55,474 nucleotides of DNA from a virus. The DNA lies in the IMG/VR virus record IMGVR_UViG_3300037231_000117, positions 1 to 55,474 of that record. One strand, 5' to 3'. Both the position numbers and the translations under genes were made by a program. The notes under the pieces are model-generated. The model did no database searches. It was not told the origin of the DNA and saw only the letters and a program-made list of their open reading frames with translations. Positions 6,606 to 55,474 of the stretch are shown here, piece after piece; position 1 is the first letter of the stretch; each line of letters starts with the position of its first letter.

Positions 6606-6929
6606 GACCTCTAATCACAAACATGTGTGCTTATCTATTTCCCTTGTCAATGAATCTCGCATTCCCAATCGAGTGTGATCGGCAGTTTGCACCTGAAAAT
6701 AGCAGACCAGATCAGGGAAAACAGCCACGGCGCGACACGCGCACGCACGACGTTTCACAAACTTTTCGGCGTTGATCGCGTCTAAATTTAATCGAGTTAT
6801 TCTTCTAATTTTTCCGGACAATCTGGCGGATGAGTGCGTCACTGTTTCTGTAAAATTGACGCGCAATTCACGCGCGGAATTACCGACGCGTTCCGTTGTC
6901 AGCGACGGTGCGGGGTGACAAAAACGCGC
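6606..6929. promoter_or_regulatory. Divergent AT-rich control region, 324 bp without a gene
   Basis: This region separates the leftward NusG-like gene from the rightward gene at 6930 and is clearly more AT-rich than its surroundings. On the minus strand a TTGACA box occurs about 50 bases before the NusG-like start, but its -10 is unclear. On the plus strand TTGACG (6856-6861) with a 17-base spacer and ATTACC (6879-6884) could drive the 6930 gene. A TTTTCCGGACA near 6808 partly matches the replication iterons. No RNA gene was recognised. Confidence 0.5.
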
Positions 6930-8480: not shown

Positions 8481-8740
8481 CAGCCAGCTTCTCCGACATC
8501 CACCCAGCGCACGCCGTTGGTTACTGGCATCCGCAAGGTGCCGCTCTCCAACCGCGCCAGCACGATCCGCAGCATCGGCACCAGGTCGATCGCAGCGGCA
8601 TTGCTATAGAGCGCGAGCCGCGTACTGCCGGCCGCCGGGTCGAACGCGATCACCACTACCCGTTCGTTCGGCTCGACCTGGCCCAGCGTGTCGATCAGCG
8701 TCGCCGCAGCGGTCGTCAGGTGAGGGAACGTATCGCCCAT
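8480..8740 (-). CDS. Hypothetical replication-operon protein, 86 aa
   Basis: This starts MGDTFPHLTTAAATLIDTLG, overlapping the initiator stop by one base (TAATG). It is a small alpha/beta-looking protein (NERVVVIAFDPAAGSTRLAL). It has no cysteines or membrane helix. No family was recognised. Its position directly after the initiator gene suggests a helper in replication, as with helicase-loader genes in other phages, but no loader motif is visible. Confidence 0.6.
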   Translation of the reverse strand: MGDTFPHLTTAAATLIDTLGQVEPNERVVVIAFDPAAGSTRLALYSNAAAIDLVPMLRIVLARLESGTLRMPVTNGVRWVDVGEAG

Positions 8741-10284
8741 TATCCGGTAACCGGTGCATCGGAAACTGCCGGCATCAACCGAAACTCGACGTCGTCGATC
8801 CCAAACGTTGGACCCAGCAACATCTTTCGCAGATAGCTGTAGCCGCCTTCACGTGCCTTATCCCGCTGGTACGCGCTTGGCAGCGCCATGATGGCCACAC
8901 CCTCATCGACGCCGGCGAAAGCCATCTCGCGCAGCCACATCCGGTATGATTCTTCTCCGACCAGGGTCTTTAGTGCCGCGCGCGCGTGCTGCCACTTCCT
9001 CAGCAGATCCGGGGAGGAGGCGAGCCACCCCTCGGTCGCGACAACCCGTTCCTCTTCGGCGGCAAGCCTGGCCTCCAGCGCCTGCTGCTTGGCTACAAGC
9101 GCCGGCGAGACGGGCGCGGTGGCAGCGACACGCTTGGCGGGGATATCGCCACGCCGGCGCTCCCGGGCTTCGCGCACCGAATTGCTGAAAAAGGCCAGGC
9201 CGTTCGGCACACTTCCCATCAAGTTCGCCATCCTGATCTGGACGACGGCGCGAATCGTGTCCGGAGTCTCCCCATCGTCAAGCCATCCCTGAACTGCCCC
9301 GAGGTCCTTGGCGTGAGGTGGACGGCCCGGCGACACGATCGCCTTCAGCTCCGCAGTGAGGCTGGCGACGGCAGGACTTTCTCCGGACACATCGGCGGGA
9401 CTTTCTCCGGACACTTCGGGACTTTCTCCGGACAAACCAGAGTGACTTTCTCCGGACAACGGCGCGCGGCTCTCAGTTGCTGGTACTGATGCTAAGTGAT
9501 GGATATCCCTTGTACTGGCATCAGTACCAGCCGCGCGGGCGATCCGCTCGCTGTCCGGAGAAAGTCGCTCGTCGTTGTCCGGAGAAAGTCCCGAAGTGTC
9601 CGGAGAAAGTCCCCCTGATGTGTCCGGAGAAAGTCCACTTTCTCCGGACAACGAGAGGTCTCCCATGACCACGTCATACATCGACGGATTTTGCGCGGGC
9701 CGCGTTCTTTTCGTCCGACGCGCGGCGGCCGTCTGGTCCCGGAAGCCCCACCGGTGCGGCATCGCGACGCCCCCGGCCGCCAGGTCCACCAGCATGGAGT
9801 GGCGGAACAGCTTATCGAGCTGGGCGCCTTCAATACCCTCGAACACCGACAGAAACTCATCTCGCGAGTGATATACGTCACCAGGTTGGCCGAACGTTAG
9901 GTTGACGCCATCGTCGGCGAGAGTGCGGATCTCGATCAGCGCCTCGACCCAAAATTCCCGGGTCTCCGCATCCAACAGCCCCTTGAACGCCCGCACGTTG
10001 CGGATCGCGGCGAAGGCGCGGCGCAGCATGTTGCCCTCGGACATGCGCTTGGGCGGCGCTGGCTCCCGATCAGGCGCGGCTTCGGGTTGCGCCTCGACCG
10101 CAGCAAGCGGGCGAACCAGCTTCATCATCCGGTACACTTCGGACCTCATCATGCCGGCCCGCAAGGCGATCGTGCTGACGGACACCCCATGATCGGCGAG
10201 CGTTATGTACAGCCGACCGCGTGCGAGTGTTTCAGGGTCGGCGCCCGCCGGGCGTCCCGTGCGTCCTGTTGCATTGCTGGACAT
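8740..10284 (-). CDS. Replication initiator with DnaA-domain-I-like C-terminus; carries the iteron array
   Basis: This 514-residue protein begins MSSNATGRTGRPAGADPETL at ATG 10284, with a strong GGGAG ribosome site; longer readings to 10464 lack one. A helix-turn-helix lies near residues 25-60 (VSVSTIALRAGMMRSEVYRM). A helical domain follows (about 75-180). Residues 211-303 are low in complexity (LSGES, LSPD repeats), encoded by the iterons. The C-terminal 75 residues (KWQHARAALKTLVGEESYRM, then WLREM and ALPSAYQRDKA) match the layout of DnaA domain I. It probably binds its own gene, opens the origin and recruits host helicase, as lambda O does. It heads a six-gene coupled operon. Confidence 0.75.
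   Translation of the reverse strand: MSSNATGRTGRPAGADPETLARGRLYITLADHGVSVSTIALRAGMMRSEVYRMMKLVRPLAAVEAQPEAAPDREPAPPKRMSEGNMLRRAFAAIRNVRAFKGLLDAETREFWVEALIEIRTLADDGVNLTFGQPGDVYHSRDEFLSVFEGIEGAQLDKLFRHSMLVDLAAGGVAMPHRWGFRDQTAAARRTKRTRPAQNPSMYDVVMGDLSLSGESGLSPDTSGGLSPDTSGLSPDNDERLSPDSERIARAAGTDASTRDIHHLASVPATESRAPLSGESHSGLSGESPEVSGESPADVSGESPAVASLTAELKAIVSPGRPPHAKDLGAVQGWLDDGETPDTIRAVVQIRMANLMGSVPNGLAFFSNSVREARERRRGDIPAKRVAATAPVSPALVAKQQALEARLAAEEERVVATEGWLASSPDLLRKWQHARAALKTLVGEESYRMWLREMAFAGVDEGVAIMALPSAYQRDKAREGGYSYLRKMLLGPTFGIDDVEFRLMPAVSDAPVTG
9375..9650. other. Probable replication origin: mirrored iteron array with central hairpin
   Basis: The iteron GACTTTCTCCGGACA occurs on the plus strand at 9375, 9399, 9420 and 9444, and inverted at 9552, 9576, 9597 and 9621. 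A ninth plus copy (14 bp) at 9637-9650 forms a near-continuous palindrome with the eighth. The spacings are 24, 21, 24 in each arm. Perfect 14-bp arms (GCTGGTACTGATGC) at 9479-9492 and 9518-9531 form a central hairpin. Every pair is mirrored about the same point, 9505. The array lies inside the initiator gene and keeps its frame. Iterons inside an initiator gene are the known layout of the lambda O-type origin. Confidence 0.8.
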
Positions 10285-24203: not shown

Positions 24204-27200
24204 CTATTGTGGGCGCGTGCCGAAAACGTTCTCTGCGGCTTTGTTCCGCATGGCGTTGTATTTCATGATCTCAAGGCGCTTTTGTTCCGCGCCCAGGGTC
24301 GGGCTTTCACCGACGCGTTTGATCTGCCGGTTCGCCATCTGCTCGACTTCGGTCACTTTATCGACCAGTTCGTGCTTGGCGATCTGATCCTTGTTCGCCG
24401 CCGAGAATGCGCGGGCGTCGTCAACCCGTCCGCGTGCGATGAGGTCGAGATAGGTGGCGTAGGTCCGGCTGATCCCCTCGGCCTGCTGATAAAGCATGTC
24501 GATGTAGCGGCTCTGCGGGGTGGTTGATGTCGAAATCATGCCCCCCGTCGCTTGGTTCCACAGATCGGTGTTCGGCCGCACCGGCTCGACTGGCGCCACG
24601 CCGCGGAACGCCGCCTGTGCCTGATCGGCGCCGCGCACCGTCAGGTCGGCGAGATTGACGACGTGGGATCCCAACCAGCCGAAATAGCCGTTCACCAGGT
24701 AGTCGAGTTGGATCGGCGCCAGGAACTGTGCCTGCGGTCCACCGATTGCCCGCGCCGCCGCATTGCCCGCCGAACTGGCCGCCCGAGCGAACAGGGTCGT
24801 GGACGGCGTGTACCGTTCTTCCGAGCGCAGCCGGTCCATGCCTTTGCCGATAATCGGCGCGCCGGTACCGGACTCGTTTTCCAAAAGGTCCAGCACCGGG
24901 CGCACGATCTGCGGCACCGGGCTTAGCGACATATTGGTCCCGAGGATCTGCAGTACGGAGTTGGCGAACCGGCGCGGAGTCATCTCGTTGCGGCCAAAAA
25001 TGGCCTCGACCCCGTTGGCCGCGATCCGCGACATCGCCGCGATTTCAAAGCCCATCGGGATGCGGAACTGAGTGTTGCCGAACTTGAACCAGAAATTTGC
25101 GTCCCGGTCGTACTCCGTGCGCTTTTTGTAGTCTTCGTCGTTGGCGTAGATCGCGTCGAGAGCCAGCGTCAGCAGCGACGTAGCGCCGAGCACGATGGCA
25201 ACCCGCTTGGTGGCGGACGCTGCAACCCTGGCCCCGACCGCGACGGCGATGTTGCGATCCTGGTTCGCAGCCGCCCGCCCGACCTTGTACAGCCCCTGTG
25301 CCCATGCGTTCATAAACGGCACCGTCTGGGTAAGCACCCGCGCGATTGCGCCGGCACCCTTGAGGGTGAAGTCCTCCAGGTCGCGGGCGGCAAAAGCGGC
25401 TTGGTCGTGCGGGACACCATCGGCGATCAGCTTGTGATAGAGCGCGAACCGCTGGACATCCTCGCTCTGCGCACTGACTTCCTTGTATGCGCGGGCGATC
25501 TGGGAAACCCGATGCCAGAACGCGTTGATCGTGTCTGGCCGGTCCAGCATCGTGTCGAGATCGGTTCTCCGGCCGCCGGTGTCATGGCCCGATCCCAGCC
25601 GCATCGTGCCACCGCCGGCGATGGCGTCCGCCGCCTCGTTGCCCAGATTCAGCCTGTGTAGCTGCTGCCCGGCTATAGCCCGCGCCACGTTCTTCAACGC
25701 TCCGGGGAGGTCGCCCATGCCATAGCCGCTTATGACGTTTTTTGCGACGTTGTAGGACAGCGGCGCCGTGGCGATGGCCTGCTCGGCGTCGCGGATGCTG
25801 ACCCGCAGCATGAAGCGGGGATCAGCAGTGACGCCTTGCGTCAGGATGGTTTTGAACTTGGTCGCCGAATCCATGACGGGGTTGCGAAATCCGGAAAAAT
25901 CCAGTGCCGAGATCGCTGTGAACAGCAGCGGGTCGTGGACCTCGAAGAACTGCTTCTGGCCAGTGTTCATCACCCAAACGGTCGCTCGCTTTTCCGCCTT
26001 GGACTGGTAGGCGATGTCCCGCGCCGACAGCTCGCGCACGGCGCCGTTGGTGACGCCGGTGTCGAGGACGCCGGCGGATGCACGGTTGCGGAGCGACGCG
26101 TCGATCATGTGCGACCAGTTCTTGATCGCGTTGTCCCAGAGGTCGTTGTTCAGTCTTTCCGTGCCGCCCTTCAGCGTCTTGAACGCATTCTGCTTGACGA
26201 ACCCTGACGTCACGCTTGGGCCGGCGAAATGCCCGTCTGCCTCCGCGACGCGGTAGAACGGCACGTAGAACGGATTGGAGAACAGCGTACTGACCCGATC
26301 GCCATCGAGCAGGCCCGACTGCACGGCGAGATCGAGTACGTTCTTGTTGAACCCATCGAGCTTGCGGAGTGAATCGAGGTAGACCGCTTCGCGCGAGCGG
26401 GTAATCGAGCCATCCGGCAGGTGATAATCGAACGGCACCTGACCTTGGTTGGTCGCCTTGATCGTGTCGATATCGTCTTGCGACCATAGATTCTCCCGAT
26501 CTTCCGCGGTCAGCCGTTCGGCGCGGTTCGCCGCGACCCACCAGATGAAGCGATCTTGCTCGCCGTGTAGCGGCCGCACCAGGGAGTGCTCGACGCCGCC
26601 GTTACGCTCGTCCATCGCGTACGTGCTGCCATTGAACCGCAGCGTGCCATCGGTCAGGAACATCTCGGTCGCGCCGGCGGTCGTGTTGGCGTTGCGCAGC
26701 GCCATGTAGCCGGCCGGGTCGTCGGCCTTGACGCCGATATAGGGGTCAAGCCACGCGCGCACCGTGCGCCGGCCGAGGTCGTTGGTCGCGGCGGCGAGGC
26801 GTTCGCGCCAGGTCGGCGTGACGACCACGCGGCCGACGTTGCGATAGGCTGCGACCTGGTCTGGCGTCCAACGCTCGGTTTCCCGCTCGTCGCGGACGGC
26901 GACTTGCTGGCGTGGGGAGAACAGCGGCAGGCCCTGCGTCTGCACCGCTTCGCGGAGCTGGGGCGTGATGTCGAAGGAGTGGACGGATTGCCGGGTCTCC
27001 GGTTTGGCGTTCTCGGTAGACTCCCACCCGCTCGCATTTTGGACGGCTGGATTGGTGATCTCGCTCTGCCCGACTTTGGCGCCGAACTTGCTGACCAGCT
27101 TCTGGACCTCGGACGGCAGTTGCTTGTCGTAGAAGCCGCGCATGCCTTCGCCGCCGACTTTGAGATCAAGGCCCGTTAGCTCGCCAGTCGCATCGCCCTT

Positions 27201-30200
27201 GTAGCGAGTATAAATGTTCTCGCCGTTCTCAATCTTCTGGGCGATTTCCTTTCCGACTAGATCGGCCACTCGCCCAATCGAAATTCCATCTTCGTTGATG
27301 AGAGAGTTGCGGCCCTTCGACGCCACGATGTTGTACTTGCCGTCGTCTCGTTTTGTGTAGCCGATCCGATCAATCTGCTTGGACAGGTCATACCGATCGG
27401 CCTGTGCATCGCCGGGTGTCCACGCTACGCGATCGAAGCCATGATCCACCGCGTATTGCGTCATCCGCTTCATCGCGAGCATCGGCCATGTCGTTTTGAA
27501 CGGCGCGTCTGGGACGCCACTCGGAGTGTCGTAGCCCTGCCGACGTCCAGCCTGGTGCCAGTCTGATTGGATCTCCTCGATATGCAGCACCTTGGCGCCG
27601 TCCGGTGCGGTGCGCTCGGCAAAGCGCGTGTGCGCCACGACGTTCGGTTCGTCCCAGTGGGATGAACGGTAGGCCGTTTGCTCTCCGGTCATTACGGTCC
27701 GACCGTCAGCAATTCGCAGAGCCTCTTGATGGATGCGATCTGCTTCCGCTGTATTTCCATCCTCCATAGCATCATGCTCAGCGGCCTGTAGTGCTTGAAG
27801 ACGCGCCCCGATTCGTTCGTCGGCTGTCGCCGGAAGCGTCATCAGCATCTCGCGGTAGTTCTGACCGCCCGGCAGCGTGTATTGGCCGAACTTAGTCTTG
27901 GTATATTCCGACAAATACGGGTTCGGTTGGCGCGAAAGCTCGTTTAAGAGCCGGCCCATTTCGTCATCTTCGACCGGCGTCAGTCCGCGCCTTTCTCCCC
28001 CAAACCTTCGCGCACTTTCGTCGCGGTCATTAAGCTCCTGAAACCGATCCCGCTTGGCAGCGACGTCCGGCGCCTCGATCGGAGCGCCCCTTACGACGTC
28101 GCGCATGTCGAGCCGGTTGGCGCGTAGATAGTCCAGCACTTCGCCCTTGGTGACAGATTTCGGCTGCTTGCCGAGCCAGTCATCAAGCCCGGTCCACGCG
28201 CGTTCCTCGGGCTTCACGCCGGCCATGTTCCTGATCGTGGCGAGCCACTGGCCCGGTGTGGCCTTCTCCTGTTTGATGCCCTCTACCGCCCGCGTCAGCG
28301 CAGAGAACAGCGGCGTGCTGCCTTCCTCGCGGTCTTCCTGGCGGCGCGGCGAAAACTGCACACCGCCCTCCAGCGACGTGACCGGCCGCGTCTTGATGAT
28401 AGCCTCGATCGCGGTGGCGGCGGCCGTCGGCTCGGTCGGAACGAAAAACCGGGTCCGGCTGGCGATCCGCTCGCTGAATACCCCCGACCGCGCCAACTCA
28501 TCGCCGTAGCGGTAATCCGGACCCACCAGTTCGATGCGCGGTTCGCCAGCGACCAGAGAGCGCTTGATGGTCCAATCGTTCGCCAGCCGCGCGGTTGCGC
28601 CATTCAGCACCTGCGTCGCGATCTCGCCCGGCGACCCCGTCACCTTGACACCCTCGGCGCCGAGGCTTTTGAGCGTGGCATCGACACGCGAGGCCGGCAC
28701 GACGCGGCCCAACATCCGCTCGCCCTGGTCGGTCTGGAGCCGGAAAATCTTCGGGTTGCCGCCAAGCCGGTCCCAGATCGGCAGCACGGCGCCGGTGATG
28801 ATGTGCAAGCTGCTGTTGCGGAATTCGGGCGTCGCCGCGACCTGGTTGTCCCATAGCGGCTTGGCGTCTGCCGGCGTCAACCGTCTCCAGTTGTCGCGAT
28901 CGACCTTTTCGCGGTCCAGAAACTGATAGTCGGTCGGCGAGGTCAGCCGCGCCTGGGGGATGATCCGCCCATCCGCGTCGGTGTAATTGCCGGCCGAGGT
29001 CACCGCGAACACGCGCCCGCTTTGGACGTTCTGGATGAAGGTGTCCGGCTTCATGCCGTTGGTCTTGTTGCGCCCGGCCAACGTCTCGGCGAACCCGACC
29101 GGCTCATTCCGGTTCTGTGCGTTCAGGTGGACATGCTTGGTCTCGGCGCCCGAGCGCGGGTCGGTATAGACCGTCTGCTCGCTCAGTTTGGTGATCTTGT
29201 CCGCCTTGTAAGTCTCGACGCCGGTATCCAGCGTGCCGGCGGCGGACGCGCGGGCAATCGCCAGGTCCATGCGGTCACTGAACGCCTGGAAAACCCCGTT
29301 CTGATGATCGACCTTCAGCGACAGCACGCGGTTGAGGAACTGCGACATTTCCGGCAGCGGGGAAACGAGCGCGCCGTTATCATCGCGCATCTTCAAGCCC
29401 ATGCTCTTTTCGAGATCGTCTATCGAGACGCCCTCGACCTGGCCCATGGTCACGTCCTTGAAGAACTGGATCAGTCCGTCCCTGGCCTCGGTGCTTTCGA
29501 GGTTGTCCCGCATCCCGAACATGCCCTGGTCGGCCGCCCGGCGCTCGCCCTTGGTCAGCGCGCCCAACTGCGCCAGGCGCCGCGCGATCGAGGATATGAA
29601 CCGCTTCTGGCCTTGGAGGTCGGTGGTCACAAGATGGAAGATCGGCGCCGACGCCTGGTTGGTACGGTGCGTGCGGCCGAAGCCCTGGACTGCCTTGTCG
29701 GCCCGCCAGCCGCCTTGCACGAGGTAGTGCGACCGGCGCGCATCCTGACTGCCCGAACCGTTCTCTGCGTGGTAGCTGCGCCCGGTGCCGCCAGCCTCGG
29801 AGAACACCAGTATCGGCTTCTTGCCTGCCTGGAAGCTGCTGGCATCGGCGACGTTGGCGCCCGCGCCGCGCTGCTCGACCATCGTCTTGAGCTGCCCGCT
29901 TTCGTCCACCTGACGAACGACCCGCTGCTTGCGTCCTGTCACCTCGGCGACTTTGTCGGAACCAAAGTGATTGAGCAGCATTTCCAACGGACCATCGGGC
30001 ACGCGCAGGCTGCCGATCTGGTCAAGCAGGCGTTCCCGTCCCGCGACGGCCGCTTTGTTGATCACCGCCTCTCCGTTGCTGTCTGTCGCCGGACGCGACC
30101 GGAGGTTGCCGTTGTCATCGACATATTCCTCCATCTGCTGCACGGGATAGGCTTTCTCGACCAACTGCATGAGCTGGTCGCGCGGCGTCATATCGAGGTC

Positions 30201-33200
30201 CTCGATGTCCCCGTCGCCTGACGCCCGCGCCTTCTCCAACGCGCGCTCTTGCGCCGCCTCCATGGTGTTGACCAACTGCAACACTGCCTGGCGCCCGGCC
30301 TTCAGGTCTGCCTCAACCCCACGGATGACCGACGGCATCTGCATCGAGGTGATGATCTGGTTGAAAAACCGCTGATGGCCGCCCCAAAAGGCGGACATGA
30401 CGGCGGCTTTCGCCCGTGGGTTTTTCGTCTTGCCGTCCTCGGTTATGCCGGTTGCTTCGAGCGCCGCGTTGAAGTTCCGAAGCACCAACTGCCAGCCTTC
30501 GGCCAGCTTGTCGTATGTGTCCCGCTGATCAGCACTGAGGACGTGTTCGACCCGATCGTAATCCACGCCGTCATAGGACAGGTTGCGGGCGATGTAGTGC
30601 CCGAGCGCCTTCATGTCGCGGGCGACGAGTTCCATCCCGGCGATGCCGCCGCTGGACACCTGGCCGATGAAGTCATCCCGGTTCGCAAAGGCAGTCCCTT
30701 CGCCCCACAGGCCCAATCGGGTCATATACGCGAGGTTGGAAACTTCGGTGGCCCCCGTCGCCGACACATAGACCACGCGGGCATTCGGCAATTCGTCCTG
30801 AAGCCGCATGCCTGCTAAGGCTTTTTGCGCCGCTTTCTTCACGCCGCGAGTGCCCTTCGTATCAACGGAATTACCCATGTTGTGGGCCTCATCGAAGGCG
30901 ATCACGCCGTCGAAGTCTTTGCCCACCCATTTGATGATCTGATCGACGCGCGTTTGTCCGGCCGCACCCGGGGTAAGCGAGCCGCGCCTGGTCGGGTCGC
31001 CGTTCTCTTTCCAAAGGTGGGCGTCGCCGATGGTTTCGGTTGTGCCGTCTGCCTTCTCAATTGCCCAGGCGGGGTACTTCTCTTTTGTTGGACCGCTTTG
31101 GATCGTCCCGGTGTCGGTCTTTGTCGGGTCGTTAGCGTCAGTGTGCCATGTGACGCGGGAGCCAACCTTGAAACCACCGGTGGGCGCGGTCTTTTCCTCC
31201 GACTTCAGCGTGTCGTAACTGGTGAACAGGATGCCCTTGTCAGCCTTGATCGTGTCGCCCGGCTTGAGCTTGCCGTGGTCGATGATGTCCGTCGCCGGTT
31301 GCCCCATGCCGTTCCAATCCCGTCGGGCATCGTTGACCAGCGCCCGTTTCTCGGACACCCAGACGGCTTTGGTGCGGCCGTTCTTGAAGTTGTCGAGGAC
31401 TGTGCCGGCGATCTCGCGGCCCTTGCCGACGCCGGTACCGTCGCCGATTAGAAACCCGCGCCGCCGGCCATCGGCCATAACGTCGCTGTGCGCGTGCCCG
31501 GCATAGACGATCGCCTCAAGCTGGGCATCCGACAGCGCGCCGGACTTGACCAGCGCGATCGGGATGCGCGGCTTGTAGCCGGTGACCGGCGGCATGACCG
31601 TCGCCATGGCGGCGGACTGCACCAGTTCGCCCGGGTGCGGCCTCGCGCCGGCGATCTGCACGCGCTGGGGTTTGTAGGCCTCATAGACGGCTTCGCTGAC
31701 GGCTTGGTTGTCCGGTGCGGAAATGGCGTTCTCTGTCGCCAGGACCGCCTCGGGCGCCGGCGTCAGTCCGGGATCGTCTCGCTCTCCGCTACCATCAGGT
31801 CGTACGCCGTCTCCACCGCTATCGTTGCGGCCTCCGCCGGCGTCGCCGCCCGGTCCTCCAGTTGCGACGTGAGGCTCTCCTCCTGCTCGTCCCTGTCCAG
31901 GTTCGGATTGGACAGGAACCACTCCGTAGCCCGCATCGCCTGGTTCGGTCCCGACCCCAGCAGGGCGTTCACCGCGGACTCCAGGTTCGCGCGTTCCGGC
32001 TGGCTCGCTGACACCGGCGGCGATATCTCCACCACCCCCTTCTCCAGCCCCCACGCCGCCAGTTGGGCGATGTAGCTCACTGCCGGGTCCGGCGACGCCT
32101 TCGCCTCCCGCAGCCACTTCAGGGCCGCCTGGTTGATCGGCCACTGGTTCGACGGTGCTTCGCTCATCCCTTACACCCTGGAGTCGATCGATAACGTCGG
32201 CCGCATCGTGCGCCTGGCCGGTAACCAACGGCCTGCCGCTCGGCGGGTTCTTGTCAATTACCAACAATCGCGTCGGAAAGCTTGTGCCATATTTCGTGTA
32301 GATGTCGCGATCGACGCCGATGTTGGCGCGAACGTCGTATTCGGCGCCGATCTTTGCCCACCAGTCGCGAAAAGCCTTACCGGTTCCCTGCCGGCCGGTA
32401 CCTACGGCCGGGGTGCCTTCTGGCTTCATGCCGTCGCCGACGATCGCCACCAGCCGGCCGCCTGGCTCTAGCCGGGCCAAAGCCGCCTCGATGTGCTTGG
32501 CGCCCTCATCGAGCACCATGCGGCCACCCATGCGTTCGGCGGCGCGGCTGAATGGCGGGTTCATCACCACCACGGTCGGCCGCACGTCCGCCGGCAGGAT
32601 GTTGTGCAGTTGGGCCGCGTCCTCGCCAGCGACGCGCGTGGGGTGCAGTGCGGCGATCATGCCGCGGCGCTTGTCGCTCAATTCGTTGACCGTCGTCTCG
32701 CGCACGCCGGCGTTCATGGCATGGACGATCAGGCCGCCGACACCGGCGGACGGTTCCAGCACGTGATCGTCCGGCCGCAGGTTGGCGACCCAATTTGCCG
32801 CGAAGGCGTAATCGGGCGGCGTCGAGAACTGCTGGTAAGCGTCCTTTTCGCCGGCGCGGACGGTCTGCGTCGGCAGATTGTCCTTCAGCGCGGCCAGCTC
32901 GCGGGCGGCGGCTTCGGCCTGCGGAGCGTCAACCGCCGGATTGAAGCGTTCCGGATGGCGCTGGATGAAGCGGTTTACGCCGAGTTCAAGCGCGTCATAG
33001 AGCCGATCGCGGGTGAAGGCGCCGGACGCCAGCGTGCCGCCATAGGTGTTTTCCGCCAGCGCTTGGAGTTCCCGCGACGACAGCGGCGAAACGCCCTCCG
33101 CCACAGGCTGCTCCAGGCGGGACGCGATACCTTCGGCCAGAGCGTGGTCGCGATCCGCCGTGCGGGCGTCCGGCGCTTCCGGGATCGGCGCGGGGTTCGA

Positions 33201-36200
33201 CGGCGGTGCTGGTACCAGCGAGTCCGAAGCGGGGGCACCGGCCTCTACCGGTAGCCTGTACTCGGGTTCGCGCCCCTCGAACGTCGGATGCCACTCTGCG
33301 ACCTGGTATTCGGGGCGGTTGGTGCGATCGACCGTGATCTCTCGCGAGCCTGGCCGAATGCCGACCGGCTCGGTGGCGCGCACGCCGTTCTCGACGTAGG
33401 ACCGCACCCCACGCTGATCTTCATAAAGCGTCTGACCGATGTGGTTCTTGCCGATCTCGGTCCGGCCGTCCGGTGCGACGACGGGCGTCGCGTTCGTTCC
33501 AGCCTGGCGCAGCGCCGTGCGGGTGTCGCGCGCCATCTTCTCCCACGTCCAGCCGGCCGCGCGCGGATCGACGCCGGCCTTCGCGACCAGCGCCGCACGC
33601 TGATCGTTCGGCATGGCGTTCCACCATCCGGGCGAGTCCGGCGGCACCGTGCCGGGCGGCTGGATGTGCGTTGTCTTGCCGGTTTCCAGGCTGGTGAGGA
33701 TCAGGCCCGGATGCTCGGTCGGCGGTCTGCCCAGGTTTACAACCTGGTCAGCCTTCGTGGACTCAACCTGAGTCTGATCCGACAGCGCCTCGGCCGTCGC
33801 ACCGAGTTCGTTCCGCACCTTCGCCATCTCCGGCGTGTCGGCCGCCGGGTGCGTGACCGCGTCGAGTTTTTGACGCACGTCATCGAGCCGCGCCTTCGTG
33901 GGCGCCGGCAGCTTCGTTTCGTCGCCCGCGACCGGCCGCACGATCGCCGCCTCGGTCTGCGTCAGCAGCTTGGCCTGCGGTGTGGCCGCAGCCTTTGCGT
34001 CACGCTCCGCCGCCAACTGATCGAGCCAGCGGCGCAATTTCAGCACGACCGCCCGCGTGGCATCTTGGGCTTCGGGCGATCCCGCCGTCGGTATGACCGG
34101 GTTTACAACCTGGTCTGCCACAACCCGATCCCGCTCCGCCCGGTCTCGCATCTGCCCCAGCGCGGCCTGTTCGCGCTCAACCGGCGTGCCGAACCGCGCG
34201 GCATACATCTGCGCCAGGGTGTCGTGGATTTCGCCGATGTTCGTCACCCAATTCTGCGACCTTGTCCCGGAATCGCCGAAGATTCCGCGCACCGTCTCCA
34301 TCGCCGATTTCAGGCCGTCGATCAGGTTGCCAAGCACATCGCCGGCGACGCTGTTGCCGAACCGCTGCTGGATGGCGTCCACCACGCGCGGCAGGAACGA
34401 TTGGAACTTCGGCGCCTCGCCGCCGATATCCGATCCCAGCTCGTTTATCAGGTGCGCCTGGACCGCGGCGGCGTGGGCGGTGTCGCCTTCAGGACCGGCG
34501 CCGAAGCCTGCGCGCGCCGGCGCGGTCGAGCCGAATGTTGCCTGCGCGTAACGCGTACCCGCAGGGGTGATGCCGGCCGCGATCTGCTGATTGAGCAACT
34601 GGCCAAGATCGGTGCCGTCGGGCAGCGTCGTGGTCTGGAGAACGTGGGTAAACTCGTGCCCGGCCACCTGCGCGACATTGCGGGCCGGGTCGCTGCTCAG
34701 AAAGATCGTGTTCGGCTGGCTCGGGTCCATCGCGCCGTCAAACGGGATCGCGCCGTCGTCCTTGTAGAACACGACATCGACGCCAGCCTGTCCGTAGTGA
34801 GCGCGCAGCGCGTCCGCGGTTTCGGTGGAAATAGCCGGCTCGGCGCCAGGTGCGGGCGGCTCCGCCGATGGGGTCCACACCTCGATCGGATGCGTGATCT
34901 CCGTACCCGAGGCATCGGTCGTGCGGAAATGGTAGCCGCCGTCCGGCGCCTGTTCCACGGTGCCGGCACCGGTGTTGTCGAACAGCTTGAGCAGTGCGGC
35001 CTGCTGCAAGTCGGCACTGTCGCCCGTTGCCAGGTTCCCGGCCTCGGCATTGACGTCGATCGGCGCCCCCTCCGCGGGAGCGGACACAGCCTGTCTCGCC
35101 GTGTCGATGGCGGTGTCAACGTCCGGCGCATTGAGCACGTCCGCGACGGCCGGACGCGGCTGCACGTTCGGACGCCCCGGCATGGCCCGCCCGGCCAGCC
35201 TGCCGGCGCCGCCCAACACGGCCGCCGCGCCAGGCAGCAACGCGCCGGCGACGAACTGTAGGCCGAGGTCTTTACCGACGCCCTCGCCGATGTCCTGGTC
35301 CGGTTTGTAGGTCGCCTTGGCGATGACGTTGTCGGCCACGGCCTGCAACTGGCTGAAGGCGGTGAGGGTGGCACCGGACTTCGCCATATCGGCGAGCGTG
35401 GTCAGGAACTGGCCCCGCGCGGCACCCGGAATGCTGGCTGCCAACTCGATCGCCTGGTGGATCGGGACGGTCATCAGGCCGCCATCGACTAAGCCGCGGA
35501 ACAGCCCTGCGGTCGCTGCGTCTTCGTCTGTCGCTCCGGCTTGCTTGGCCTCATCGTAGCCCGCGCCGTAGCCCTGGACCCCCGCGAGGCCGATGACCGC
35601 TGCCGGGCCGCCGGCGACGCCCGCGCCGATGTAAGTCAGCAGGCCGCCGGCGAGATTGACGGCTTTGACGGACAGCCGCTGTTTTTCCTCATCCGTCATC
35701 GGGAAGGCTGCATTGCCGTAGTCGGTGACGGCTTGACCGGCGCCGCTGACGGAGCCGCCGACGTTCTTGACGGCCTGTCCTGCCTGTCCGAGTCCGGTGT
35801 CTTGCGGCTGCACCGCAACCTCGCCCTCGATCCTGGCCCTGATCTTGGCCCGCGTGTCCGCGTCGGAAGCGGCATACGCTTGACCAAACTCGAAGTCGGC
35901 GGCGGCCGGACTGGCTACGCCACCGGCTGTTGGCGGCTGGATGTGTTGTCCGCCGTCGATGCGGTCCATCAGACCAAGCTGACCGCGCAGCACCGCATCG
36001 GAGTTCTGTGCGGCGGCCTGCAAGGCGGTGCCAGCGCCGGTCACCATCTCGCCACCGGCTTTGACCAGTCCGCCGGCGATATCGGTCGGTTGGAGCGCAA
36101 TCGCCTTGCCGATGCCCCCGAGGGTGGACGACGGCGGCGTCGTGTCAGGCGACGCTGGCTGGACGGCAAGATGATCGATGATCTCGTTGGGCAGGTAGCC

Positions 36201-36344
36201 GGCCTTCAGCGCGGCGTCGGTGTTGAAGTTCGCCAGGCCGCCGACATAGCTCGCGATCTCGCCGTCCGAGTAGCCGGCTGAACGCGCGCCGGCGACATCG
36301 AACGGGATCGACCCGGCTGCTGCTGGTTCGCCGCCGTCAGGCAT
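24204..36344 (-). CDS. Giant polyvalent protein, 4046 aa: metallopeptidase, methyltransferase, Strawberry-notch-type helicase, LPD domains
   Basis: This is the largest gene. Two short UBA-like helices (AGYSDGEIASYV, AGYLPNEIIDHL) begin it, followed by a hydrophobic region (about 234-380). HEFTH (563-567) marks a zincin peptidase. HVLEPSAGVGG (about 1191) and NPPF (1262-1265) mark an adenine-type methyltransferase. Walker A GDGTGVGKG (1634-1642), DEAH (1818-1821) and GFGRTHRTNQ (about 2219) mark an SF2 helicase of the Strawberry-notch type. HIEEIQSDWHQ (about 2920) marks a frequent polyvalent-protein domain. A C-terminal LPD38-like part has a membrane helix (about 3714) and RIPMGFE (about 3760). 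Such proteins are packaged and ejected with DNA to block host defence, as for P1 DarB. This role is inferred. Confidence 0.85.
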   Translation of the reverse strand: MPDGGEPAAAGSIPFDVAGARSAGYSDGEIASYVGGLANFNTDAALKAGYLPNEIIDHLAVQPASPDTTPPSSTLGGIGKAIALQPTDIAGGLVKAGGEMVTGAGTALQAAAQNSDAVLRGQLGLMDRIDGGQHIQPPTAGGVASPAAADFEFGQAYAASDADTRAKIRARIEGEVAVQPQDTGLGQAGQAVKNVGGSVSGAGQAVTDYGNAAFPMTDEEKQRLSVKAVNLAGGLLTYIGAGVAGGPAAVIGLAGVQGYGAGYDEAKQAGATDEDAATAGLFRGLVDGGLMTVPIHQAIELAASIPGAARGQFLTTLADMAKSGATLTAFSQLQAVADNVIAKATYKPDQDIGEGVGKDLGLQFVAGALLPGAAAVLGGAGRLAGRAMPGRPNVQPRPAVADVLNAPDVDTAIDTARQAVSAPAEGAPIDVNAEAGNLATGDSADLQQAALLKLFDNTGAGTVEQAPDGGYHFRTTDASGTEITHPIEVWTPSAEPPAPGAEPAISTETADALRAHYGQAGVDVVFYKDDGAIPFDGAMDPSQPNTIFLSSDPARNVAQVAGHEFTHVLQTTTLPDGTDLGQLLNQQIAAGITPAGTRYAQATFGSTAPARAGFGAGPEGDTAHAAAVQAHLINELGSDIGGEAPKFQSFLPRVVDAIQQRFGNSVAGDVLGNLIDGLKSAMETVRGIFGDSGTRSQNWVTNIGEIHDTLAQMYAARFGTPVEREQAALGQMRDRAERDRVVADQVVNPVIPTAGSPEAQDATRAVVLKLRRWLDQLAAERDAKAAATPQAKLLTQTEAAIVRPVAGDETKLPAPTKARLDDVRQKLDAVTHPAADTPEMAKVRNELGATAEALSDQTQVESTKADQVVNLGRPPTEHPGLILTSLETGKTTHIQPPGTVPPDSPGWWNAMPNDQRAALVAKAGVDPRAAGWTWEKMARDTRTALRQAGTNATPVVAPDGRTEIGKNHIGQTLYEDQRGVRSYVENGVRATEPVGIRPGSREITVDRTNRPEYQVAEWHPTFEGREPEYRLPVEAGAPASDSLVPAPPSNPAPIPEAPDARTADRDHALAEGIASRLEQPVAEGVSPLSSRELQALAENTYGGTLASGAFTRDRLYDALELGVNRFIQRHPERFNPAVDAPQAEAAARELAALKDNLPTQTVRAGEKDAYQQFSTPPDYAFAANWVANLRPDDHVLEPSAGVGGLIVHAMNAGVRETTVNELSDKRRGMIAALHPTRVAGEDAAQLHNILPADVRPTVVVMNPPFSRAAERMGGRMVLDEGAKHIEAALARLEPGGRLVAIVGDGMKPEGTPAVGTGRQGTGKAFRDWWAKIGAEYDVRANIGVDRDIYTKYGTSFPTRLLVIDKNPPSGRPLVTGQAHDAADVIDRLQGVRDERSTVEPVADQPGGPEVAAGGEGVAGPGSELHRPTGGVGAGEGGGGDIAAGVSEPAGTREPGVRGERPAGVGTEPGDAGYGVVPVQSEPGQGRAGGEPHVATGGPGGDAGGGRNDSGGDGVRPDGSGERDDPGLTPAPEAVLATENAISAPDNQAVSEAVYEAYKPQRVQIAGARPHPGELVQSAAMATVMPPVTGYKPRIPIALVKSGALSDAQLEAIVYAGHAHSDVMADGRRRGFLIGDGTGVGKGREIAGTVLDNFKNGRTKAVWVSEKRALVNDARRDWNGMGQPATDIIDHGKLKPGDTIKADKGILFTSYDTLKSEEKTAPTGGFKVGSRVTWHTDANDPTKTDTGTIQSGPTKEKYPAWAIEKADGTTETIGDAHLWKENGDPTRRGSLTPGAAGQTRVDQIIKWVGKDFDGVIAFDEAHNMGNSVDTKGTRGVKKAAQKALAGMRLQDELPNARVVYVSATGATEVSNLAYMTRLGLWGEGTAFANRDDFIGQVSSGGIAGMELVARDMKALGHYIARNLSYDGVDYDRVEHVLSADQRDTYDKLAEGWQLVLRNFNAALEATGITEDGKTKNPRAKAAVMSAFWGGHQRFFNQIITSMQMPSVIRGVEADLKAGRQAVLQLVNTMEAAQERALEKARASGDGDIEDLDMTPRDQLMQLVEKAYPVQQMEEYVDDNGNLRSRPATDSNGEAVINKAAVAGRERLLDQIGSLRVPDGPLEMLLNHFGSDKVAEVTGRKQRVVRQVDESGQLKTMVEQRGAGANVADASSFQAGKKPILVFSEAGGTGRSYHAENGSGSQDARRSHYLVQGGWRADKAVQGFGRTHRTNQASAPIFHLVTTDLQGQKRFISSIARRLAQLGALTKGERRAADQGMFGMRDNLESTEARDGLIQFFKDVTMGQVEGVSIDDLEKSMGLKMRDDNGALVSPLPEMSQFLNRVLSLKVDHQNGVFQAFSDRMDLAIARASAAGTLDTGVETYKADKITKLSEQTVYTDPRSGAETKHVHLNAQNRNEPVGFAETLAGRNKTNGMKPDTFIQNVQSGRVFAVTSAGNYTDADGRIIPQARLTSPTDYQFLDREKVDRDNWRRLTPADAKPLWDNQVAATPEFRNSSLHIITGAVLPIWDRLGGNPKIFRLQTDQGERMLGRVVPASRVDATLKSLGAEGVKVTGSPGEIATQVLNGATARLANDWTIKRSLVAGEPRIELVGPDYRYGDELARSGVFSERIASRTRFFVPTEPTAAATAIEAIIKTRPVTSLEGGVQFSPRRQEDREEGSTPLFSALTRAVEGIKQEKATPGQWLATIRNMAGVKPEERAWTGLDDWLGKQPKSVTKGEVLDYLRANRLDMRDVVRGAPIEAPDVAAKRDRFQELNDRDESARRFGGERRGLTPVEDDEMGRLLNELSRQPNPYLSEYTKTKFGQYTLPGGQNYREMLMTLPATADERIGARLQALQAAEHDAMEDGNTAEADRIHQEALRIADGRTVMTGEQTAYRSSHWDEPNVVAHTRFAERTAPDGAKVLHIEEIQSDWHQAGRRQGYDTPSGVPDAPFKTTWPMLAMKRMTQYAVDHGFDRVAWTPGDAQADRYDLSKQIDRIGYTKRDDGKYNIVASKGRNSLINEDGISIGRVADLVGKEIAQKIENGENIYTRYKGDATGELTGLDLKVGGEGMRGFYDKQLPSEVQKLVSKFGAKVGQSEITNPAVQNASGWESTENAKPETRQSVHSFDITPQLREAVQTQGLPLFSPRQQVAVRDERETERWTPDQVAAYRNVGRVVVTPTWRERLAAATNDLGRRTVRAWLDPYIGVKADDPAGYMALRNANTTAGATEMFLTDGTLRFNGSTYAMDERNGGVEHSLVRPLHGEQDRFIWWVAANRAERLTAEDRENLWSQDDIDTIKATNQGQVPFDYHLPDGSITRSREAVYLDSLRKLDGFNKNVLDLAVQSGLLDGDRVSTLFSNPFYVPFYRVAEADGHFAGPSVTSGFVKQNAFKTLKGGTERLNNDLWDNAIKNWSHMIDASLRNRASAGVLDTGVTNGAVRELSARDIAYQSKAEKRATVWVMNTGQKQFFEVHDPLLFTAISALDFSGFRNPVMDSATKFKTILTQGVTADPRFMLRVSIRDAEQAIATAPLSYNVAKNVISGYGMGDLPGALKNVARAIAGQQLHRLNLGNEAADAIAGGGTMRLGSGHDTGGRRTDLDTMLDRPDTINAFWHRVSQIARAYKEVSAQSEDVQRFALYHKLIADGVPHDQAAFAARDLEDFTLKGAGAIARVLTQTVPFMNAWAQGLYKVGRAAANQDRNIAVAVGARVAASATKRVAIVLGATSLLTLALDAIYANDEDYKKRTEYDRDANFWFKFGNTQFRIPMGFEIAAMSRIAANGVEAIFGRNEMTPRRFANSVLQILGTNMSLSPVPQIVRPVLDLLENESGTGAPIIGKGMDRLRSEERYTPSTTLFARAASSAGNAAARAIGGPQAQFLAPIQLDYLVNGYFGWLGSHVVNLADLTVRGADQAQAAFRGVAPVEPVRPNTDLWNQATGGMISTSTTPQSRYIDMLYQQAEGISRTYATYLDLIARGRVDDARAFSAANKDQIAKHELVDKVTEVEQMANRQIKRVGESPTLGAEQKRLEIMKYNAMRNKAAENVFGTRPQ
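33731..33747. repeat. Palindrome CCAGGTTTACAACCTGG inside the giant gene
   Basis: The 7-bp arms (CCAGGTT/AACCTGG) are perfect with a TAC centre. It is one of three related sites (see 34089-34121 and 55219-55251), all read in frame as D-Q-V-V-N. Confidence 0.65.
34089..34121. repeat. 33-bp element shared with 55219-55251
   Basis: This element matches 55219-55251 in 31 of 33 bases, including GTATGACCGGGTTTACAAC. In both genes it codes for V-A-D-Q-V-V-N-P-V-I-P. The copies lie in different, unrelated genes. It could be a conserved DNA site or a shared peptide. Confidence 0.8.
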
Positions 36345-51876: not shown

Positions 51877-52170
51877 ATGAAGATCGAAATCGCGGTGATG
51901 GTGGTCATCGAGACGGACGATCCGCGACTGACACCGGAGGCTGTGGTCGAGGCGATGACAACGGCCAGCGGCGTTGCGGGCATCCGCCGGGTGGTACTGG
52001 GGCATCTCCCGGACGACGTCACCCGAGTGCTTGCCGTGATGGACCAGGAACAGGCGGAGTTGCTGATGATGATGAGCGAGGGAGTCGGGCGCACCGTCGC
52101 CCAGGCACTCGGCTTACGCCACCAGGTCATCCACCCGCCGGCCGACTACATCCCGCCGACCAGGGACTGA
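51877..52170 (+). CDS. Hypothetical island protein, 97 aa
   Basis: This starts MKIEIAVMVVIETDDPRLTP, eight bases after the previous stop. It is an alpha/beta-looking protein with EAMTTASGVAGIRRVVLGHL, QEQAELLMMMSEGVGRTVAQ and a Pro-rich end. The first strand-helix-strand unit resembles small ACT/ferredoxin-like folds, but this is not certain. It has no cysteine. It is part of the plus-strand island. Confidence 0.6.
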   Translation: MKIEIAVMVVIETDDPRLTPEAVVEAMTTASGVAGIRRVVLGHLPDDVTRVLAVMDQEQAELLMMMSEGVGRTVAQALGLRHQVIHPPADYIPPTRD

Positions 52171-52209: not shown

Positions 52210-53109
52210 ATGCAACTCGACACGATCCCCGCCGAACGCCTCGCGCTGCTGGATACTGTGACGCTGTTCCACGGCCAGCATCGCGGCGGTTCGGGTGATT
52301 TCAACTGCAAACATTGCGCCCGTGAATTGCTGTTCGAGGTCGTCACCGGACAACATGCCGACCGGACACCTCCGGGATGTACATTCTTGATCGATATTCT
52401 GGCCCGGGTGAACGACGGTCCGTGGCGTTCCGATGACCACCGCACCACGGTGATGCGTCCTTATCTGCGGCCGATGTTGGCGCTCGATCCCGCATTAGAT
52501 CGGCGCCGCGTTTTCGCGCTGATCGACCATGTTTATCGGACGCTTATGCCTGATGTCTGCGATGCGCTGAAACTTGACGAGCACGGTTCGACACTGCGCG
52601 ACTTGGCACCGATTGTGGACAGCCAAACCGCCCTCGCCGCCCGCGCCGCCCGCGGCGCCCTCGACGTCCTCGCCATCCTCGCCGCCCTCGCCGCTCGCGC
52701 CGCCCTCGACGCCCTCGACACCCACGCCGCCTTCGACGCCCTCGACACCCACGCCGCCCTCGCCGGCCGCGCCGCCCGCGCCTTGCTCGCCGGCCGCGCC
52801 TTGCTCGTCGCCCTCGACACCCACGCCGCCCTCGACGCCCTCGACACCCTCGCCGCCCTCGACGCCCTCGACACCCACGTCGCCCTCGCCGACCGCGCCG
52901 GCCGCGCCGCCCGCGCCTTGCTCGCCGGCCGCGCCTTGCTCGTCGCCCTCGACACCCACGCCGCCCTCGACGCCCTCGACACCCACGCCGCCCTCGACGC
53001 CCTCGACACCCTCGACACCCTCGCCGACCGCGCCGCCCGCGCCGCCCGATCGGCGTCATGGGAACGCGGTGTCCGCGAAATCCTCGATCTGGTGTGTGCG
53101 ATTACCTGA
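52210..53109 (+). CDS. Ala/Leu/Asp repeat protein, 299 aa
   Basis: This starts MQLDTIPAERLALLDTVTLF. Residues 1-135 form an ordered part with a cysteine pair (FNCKHCARELLFEVV) and LIDHVYRTLMPDVCDALKLD. From about 138 to 279 it is a run of units such as ALDTHAALDALDTHAALAGR, ending with SWERGVREILDLV. The run has high helical propensity, as in phage proteins with Ala/Arg/Asp-rich helical tails. The DNA behind it is a 9-bp-based repeat, so several frames are open; the plus frame is chosen because it has a normal N-terminal domain, a start and a sensible end. Confidence 0.65.
   Translation: MQLDTIPAERLALLDTVTLFHGQHRGGSGDFNCKHCARELLFEVVTGQHADRTPPGCTFLIDILARVNDGPWRSDDHRTTVMRPYLRPMLALDPALDRRRVFALIDHVYRTLMPDVCDALKLDEHGSTLRDLAPIVDSQTALAARAARGALDVLAILAALAARAALDALDTHAAFDALDTHAALAGRAARALLAGRALLVALDTHAALDALDTLAALDALDTHVALADRAGRAARALLAGRALLVALDTHAALDALDTHAALDALDTLDTLADRAARAARSASWERGVREILDLVCAIT
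52620..53047. repeat. Degenerate repeat built on GCCCTCGAC (9 bp) and larger units
   Basis: About 430 bases are made of near copies of GCCCTCGAC, with variants such as GACACCCACGCC, arranged in longer blocks; one block of about 57 bases (TTGCTCGCCGGCCGCGCCTT and following) recurs around 52783 and 52918. The pattern keeps frame on both strands, giving an open minus frame with Gly-x-x units (GVEGVEGGVGVEG) that looks collagen-like by chance. Confidence 0.75.
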
Positions 53110-55156: not shown

Positions 55157-55474
55157 CCGTTCGGCGGGATCGGTTCGGCCTGGAGGCGCGGCGCCCCGCC
55201 GTCGATCGGCTCGGGCACCGGTATGACCGGGTTTACAACTTGGTCAGCCACCGGCGGGTTCGGCGGCGGCGCGTTCGGCGGCGGCGCGTTCGGCGGCGGC
55301 GCGTTCGGCGGCGGCGCGTTCGGCGGCGGCGCGTTCGGCGGCGGCGCGTTCGGCGGCGGCGCGTTCGGCGGCGGCGCGTTCGGCGACTCCTTCTGTGCAT
55401 TCAGCGCGGCGCGGGCCGCCGTGGCTTTGTCCGTCGCGTCCTGCGCCAAGGCTTCTTGCGCGACAACCTCGGCC
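55153..55474 (-). CDS. Pro-rich (NAPPP-repeat) protein, C-terminal part; gene starts at 288
   Basis: This is the rest of the 160-residue gene that begins at 288 on the minus strand of the other end (bases 55348-55474 duplicate bases 1-127). It contains KATAARAALNAQKESP, eight NAPPP units, then NPPVADQVVNPVIPVPEPID and LQAEPIPPNG before the stop at 55153. The DQVVNPVIP segment is shared with the giant protein. The flexible Pro-rich linker could project a terminal peptide. Its function is unknown. Confidence 0.7.
   Translation of the reverse strand, partial: AEVVAQEALAQDATDKATAARAALNAQKESPNAPPPNAPPPNAPPPNAPPPNAPPPNAPPPNAPPPNAPPPNPPVADQVVNPVIPVPEPIDGGAPRLQAEPIPPNG
55219..55251. repeat. 33-bp element shared with 34089-34121
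   Basis: It matches 34089-34121 in 31 of 33 bases and includes GTATGACCGGGTTTACAAC. It is read in the same frame there (ADQVVNPVIP), in a different gene. Confidence 0.8.
55258..55377. repeat. Eight 15-bp tandem units encoding NAPPP
   Basis: Eight exact copies of GTTCGGCGGCGGCGC make 120 bases; two copies lie in the duplicated window ends. The true number may be larger, because the circular joint of the assembly lies in this tract. Confidence 0.85.

Follow-up and report, generated by a model that had tools for sequence, protein, structure and literature searches.

A mirrored iteron array within a putative lambda O-type initiator gene: a candidate symmetric replication origin in a phage genome

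Described origins and the layout of the locus

In phage lambda and the Stx phages, the replication origin is located inside the initiator gene (gene O of lambda), where iterons adjoin an easily melted region, and host helicase loading is set off by the initiator (PMC5043065, PMC7466680). Lambda carries four near-palindromic iterons and the Stx phages six, all flanking a 40-bp AT-rich region on a single side (PMC5043065, PMC7466680). Although the lambda origin is asymmetric, replication from it is mainly bidirectional in vivo. When transcription is omitted in the purified system, replication almost always proceeds in one direction, and the way in which transcription contributes has yet to be settled (PMC5043065). 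In the PICI/SaPI origins of phage satellites, an AT-rich melting region has a set of iterons on either side (PMC6092414); in the island of E. coli CFT073, short GGTAGAYA sites in opposite orientations surround AT-rich stretches. These origins are located 3' of a rep gene for a primase/helicase, which is the initiator and is not O-like, and their 8-9 bp iterons are degenerate and form no exact mirror. In the archaeal oriC1 of Sulfolobus, inverted ORB initiator sites flank the unwinding element (PMC12141716), but the initiators are of the Orc1 type and the sites are few and lie outside any phage initiator gene. Weak DnaA sites in E. coli oriC are grouped into two phased arrays with opposite orientations (PMC5043065), and domain I of DnaA recruits DnaB; this origin is served by the chromosomal DnaA, mixes strong and weak sites, and is not intragenic.

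The locus analyzed here belongs to the virus record IMGVR_UViG_3300037231_000117, the whole 55,474 bp of which are referred to as the window. The two ends of the record overlap exactly over 127 bp, which gives a circle of 55,347 bp, the same length as in the original prediction made from the sequence. This overlap falls inside a 15-bp tandem repeat, GTTCGGCGGCGGCGC, present in about nine copies across the circle junction (window 55252-55385 and 1-38), and the circle length may therefore be off by repeat units. The record encodes an integrase, a RecE-like exonuclease, a NusG-like protein, a portal, a capsid and a terminase, and thus most likely represents a temperate tailed phage. The features of the locus are the following.

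8740..10284, minus strand: putative initiator gene, 514 aa from ATG 10284 (ORF open to 10464), with an SD-like GGGAG before the ATG and a C-terminal DnaA domain I
8791..9000, minus strand: region coding for the C-terminal DnaA domain I (HMM E 2.3e-14; hhalign probability 98.4, E 4.3e-15)
9374..9461, plus strand: left arm, four iterons (9375, 9399, 9420, 9444) directed at the centre
9475..9527, no strand: 53-bp stretch with the lowest duplex stability in the gene, a proposed unwinding site surrounding the mirror centre 9505
9479..9492, plus strand: central inverted repeat, left half, 14 bp
9518..9531, minus strand: central inverted repeat, right half, 14 bp
9549..9636, minus strand: right arm, four inverted iterons (9552, 9576, 9597, 9621) directed at the centre
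9636..9650, plus strand: ninth iteron, CACTTTCTCCGGACA, with a single mismatch, adjoining the eighth in opposite orientation

As in lambda, the array is intragenic (nine iterons in 8740-10284) and adjoins an easily melted region. Unlike in lambda, it is not one-sided: each side has its own inward-directed set of four, an inverted repeat occupies the centre, and the C-terminus of the predicted product is a DnaA domain I. The flanking iteron sets are shared with the PICI/SaPI origins, but the array lies within a gene rather than 3' of a satellite rep gene, in a genome that carries its own capsid, portal and terminase. The original prediction held that no phage origin with this layout had been described. 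The paired iteron sets of phage satellites (PMC6092414) and of Sulfolobus oriC1 (PMC12141716) show that the layout principle is already known, whereas none of the related initiator genes that were checked contains a clearly mirrored array. As far as searches of the open-licence literature reach, the new elements are the exactness of the mirror and its occurrence in an intragenic origin of the O type.

Geometry of the array and constraint on its DNA

The 15-mer iteron GACTTTCTCCGGACA occurs in exact form at 9375, 9399, 9420 and 9444 on the plus strand and at 9552, 9576, 9597 and 9621 on the minus strand, with no further exact copy in the 55,474-bp record. The spacings are 24/21/24 in both arms, and the iteron centres lie 54, 78, 99 and 123 bp to either side of base 9505. 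Between the arms, 80 of 88 positions match; spacers 1 and 2 match (13/15), whereas spacer 3 does not (4/9), and the 17-bp gap between arm and hairpin matches at 3 positions only. The eighth and ninth iterons together form a 30-bp palindrome, the central pair of which is mismatched. These data confirm all coordinates and counts of the mirrored four-plus-four arrangement in the original prediction, including the lack of mirroring between arms and hairpin. Its estimate of agreement at about nine in ten arm positions also holds, spacer 3 being an exception, and its 30-bp palindrome is refined by the single mismatch of the ninth copy and the mismatched central pair. Elsewhere in the window, a lone iteron-like site with 3 mismatches, TAATTTTTCCGGACA (6806-6820), is found where the intergenic DNA of the region is richest in AT; it could be an operator, but chance alone would produce one match of this kind.

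The mirror score at the array is 101 of 131, compared to a genome mean of 35 (sd 5.8); the second-best score in the genome, 67, falls in a tandem repeat. Among 100 protein-preserving codon shuffles of the gene, the highest mirror score was 77. Likewise, 11 iteron matches with at most three mismatches were seen, against 1.3 expected. On the coding (minus) strand, the left-arm iterons and the ninth are read as SGES and the right-arm iterons as LSPD, and the iteron codons, some of them rare, are invariant among copies. Given the codon usage of the phage, the chance that all codons are shared is about 2e-7 for the five SGES copies and about 3e-5 for the four LSPD copies. One DNA word that is read as two peptides with invariant codons indicates that selection acts on the DNA, and the results support the conclusion that the iterons are constrained as DNA and not as protein. 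A repeat at the protein level was ruled out, since the two arms encode different peptides, and an assembly artefact is unlikely, since mismatches separate the two arms (8 of 88 positions) as well as the inner flanks (14 of 17). The matches still retained in spacers 1 and 2 suggest that the array probably originated by inverted duplication of one iteron block and later diverged outside the sites; after the duplication, it was probably kept by selection on the sites and their spacing.

The hairpin formed by the central inverted repeat is complementary at 14 of 14 positions and shares the centre of the iterons, base 9505, as had been predicted. Apart from iteron-derived pairs, it is the sole perfect 14-bp inverted repeat in the window with a spacer of at most 60 nt. 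Its 25-nt loop has a GC content of 40%, compared to 64% for the window. On the whole circle, the hairpin stretch has a z of 2.4 over 53 bp and is one of the fifteen least stable separate 53-bp sites; by the standards of the genome, the central duplex is thus only moderately weak. The single-strand fold of the whole array is very strong (z -22), mostly due to the inverted iterons.

The predicted initiator and its relatives

The ORF probably starts at ATG 10284, to judge from the preceding GGGAG. Pfam detects DnaA_N alone, at the C-terminus, with 23.8 bits, slightly under the cut-off of 24.6; the stronger assignment of this region (see the feature list) was obtained with a DnaA domain I profile of 11 DnaA N-termini from our proteobacterial survey. 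The AAA+ domain III and the DnaA box-binding domain IV are absent by Pfam, which indicates that the ORF is not a chromosomal DnaA, and Pfam likewise finds no helicase, primase or Rep/HUH nickase domain in it. There is no PHROG match, and in hhalign comparisons with O-like proteins the DnaA-I end alone was aligned, weakly. In the domain I alignment, with residues numbered as in E. coli DnaA, Trp6 is kept, Phe46 is replaced by Tyr, and Glu21 by Ser. Domain I of E. coli DnaA contacts DnaB, Phe46 and Glu21 being its two contact residues, and Trp6 is needed for dimerisation (PMC5448010). AlphaFold models are of poor quality, with a mean pLDDT of 42 and 60, and Foldseek searches returned nothing significant. 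At this low confidence, the part encoded by the iterons is predicted as coil, which fits a linker. Since no N-terminal homologue was detectable, a DNA-binding domain in that part of the protein is proposed from a predicted helical fold in a low-confidence model. With its C-terminal DnaA domain I, the ORF is plausibly an initiator. Of the window proteins that were scanned, none could be recognised as a replicative helicase, a primase or a helicase loader.

Relatives of the initiator and of the array were searched for by several routes. By tblastn against phages and plasmids, no match beyond DnaA-I was obtained; exact initiator peptide patterns found no homologue in viral and genome contigs; and the iteron-pair pattern was absent from the viral contigs. 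The initiator without its DnaA-I domain gave two weak matches only among 385 Alphaproteobacteria. Across 41 viral records sharing the capsid, no initiator homologue beyond DnaA-I was found. The six long capsid relatives (77-86% identity) carry other replication modules, with neither an initiator homologue nor a mirrored or mixed-orientation cluster, and the two exonuclease relatives (L122 and L123) have no homologous initiator and no mirrored array. In one capsid relative (G034), GCGTCAAACCA recurs as an array with spacings that are multiples of 37 bp (L098, 740-1816). An annotated Acinetobacter phage record with an apparent DnaA was rejected, as it is actually a chromosomal rpmH-dnaA-dnaN region; this record (CAKLQH020000026.1, 30874-34602, L130), labelled 'Acinetobacter phage MD-2021a', is host sequence in a phage collection.

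The C-terminal DnaA-I domain, in contrast to the rest of the protein, has counterparts. In a DnaA_N survey of 337 genomes from the class of an alphaproteobacteria-like genome, about eighteen contained extra copies, compared to two of 350 genomes from the class of a Curvibacter MAG. We take the former to be Alphaproteobacteria, to judge from their DnaA sequences. Both surveys, together with a related order, yielded 31 other non-DnaA proteins with a C-terminal DnaA-I (L164-L196), one of which (L168) carries two DnaA-I copies. Among six of these scanned against PHROGs, five matched replication initiation, O-like, primosomal or DnaD-like proteins; several members of the group are lambda O-like phage initiators. 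Intragenic arrays with a 20-24 bp period were found in about nine of 25 genes, where they scored above all 60 shuffles (about 0.4 expected), in most cases between one third and one half of the way along the gene. For some of the nine, the margin over the null is one or two matches only; the clearer cases are L164, L167, L169, L170 and L176. The array of L170 consists of five direct copies spaced at 21-23 bp, that of L169 of four palindromic 23-bp units. The co-occurrence of such arrays and a C-terminal DnaA-I in several phage-type initiators suggests that an architecture of DNA-binding part, iteron linker and C-terminal DnaA-I is recurrent. The survey thereby reveals little-described alphaproteobacterial phage-type initiators with a DnaA-type helicase-recruiting domain at the C-terminus. 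Their arrays, unlike that of the window, are one-directional or composed of palindromic units, and the N-terminus of the window protein is not detectably homologous to theirs. No surveyed initiator gene has a clear mirrored array beyond the effect of palindromic units; the mirrored array is the trait that sets this phage apart from the surveyed initiators, and it is a single example.

Proposed use of the origin and genome context

The original prediction placed a replication origin inside the initiator gene. The sequence evidence in favor of this comprises the DnaA-I domain, the iteron-like arrays in the linker of comparable phage initiators, the constraint at the DNA level, and a centre at which the duplex is weaker than anywhere else in the gene; GC skew, which had been suggested as a check, gave no origin signal (its maximum lies at 52,091 and its minimum at 34,442) and is uninformative, as its range falls inside a block-shuffle null (p 0.22). 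A role of the array as an origin appears well supported; its two-sided use is an inference. We consider it probable that this is an intragenic origin of the lambda O type, the array of which was duplicated in inverted orientation, and that both arms load helicases around a melting centre. According to this proposal, the origin of the temperate phage would lie in the linker-coding part of its initiator gene, and the N-terminal part of the initiator would bind the iterons. Since the sites are directed inward from both sides, an initiator complex may assemble on each arm, and the resulting strain could open the 53-bp centre. Host DnaB would next be brought in by the C-terminal DnaA-I domains, with a helicase for each strand, and a bidirectional start would thereby be favored. 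That no phage helicase or helicase loader was recognisable among the scanned proteins speaks for this proposal; the replacement of Glu21 and the moderate weakness of the central duplex speak against it.

Symmetric, bidirectional use of the origin is plausible. More tentatively, the origin may have exact two-fold symmetry also in its operation, with matching assemblies loading two helicases in opposite directions, so that the bidirectional start is set by the layout of the DNA and not by transcription; we hold this stricter form to be possible but somewhat doubtful. An origin that is symmetric in sequence, with every part contained in 300 bp, makes it possible to ask whether symmetry is enough for a start in both directions.

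The strongest competing explanation is that initiation needs a single arm; the other would be a relic of an inverted duplication, or would serve regulation by titrating or handcuffing the initiator, thereby limiting firing or repressing the gene. The trace of duplication in spacers 1 and 2 is compatible with it, the arrays of related initiator genes are all one-directional or built of palindromic units, and lambda initiates with one array (PMC5043065). However, the eight sites are identical, and their spacing and common centre have been kept despite the diverged spacer 3 and inner flanks, which makes a relic arm unlikely; a regulatory arm is still compatible with the data. Overall, we judge this explanation unlikely, though deserving of attention.

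The stem-loop could itself be the active element, as a cruciform or in single-stranded form, serving as a primosome or nicking site, with the iterons merely aiding its extrusion; the original prediction likewise suggested that cruciform formation may be needed. The perfect stem at the exact centre, with no non-iteron equivalent in the window, and the very strong fold of the array are in line with this idea. Nevertheless, a 25-nt loop is large for cruciform extrusion, the gene lacks a Rep/HUH nickase domain by Pfam, the fold of the array derives largely from the inverted iterons, and pairing is broken directly beside the stem (3/17). We therefore consider an active stem-loop very unlikely, and support for the suggested need for a cruciform is weak. 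It is scarcely credible that the array is no origin but an operator or silencing array for transcription control, bound by this or another phage protein: the lone intergenic site at 6806 would suit such a function, though chance predicts one, but the array lies about 0.6-0.9 kb inside a coding region, O-like initiators have their arrays in the corresponding linker, the product carries a DnaA-I, and the duplex is weak at the centre.

Two further observations concern the remainder of the genome. A single ORF of 4046 aa (window 24204-36344) occupies more than one fifth of it, and its relatives resemble parts of it only. In addition, a large tandem repeat array with 9-bp and 126/135-bp periods (window 52628-53057) is located between the portal and terminase genes.
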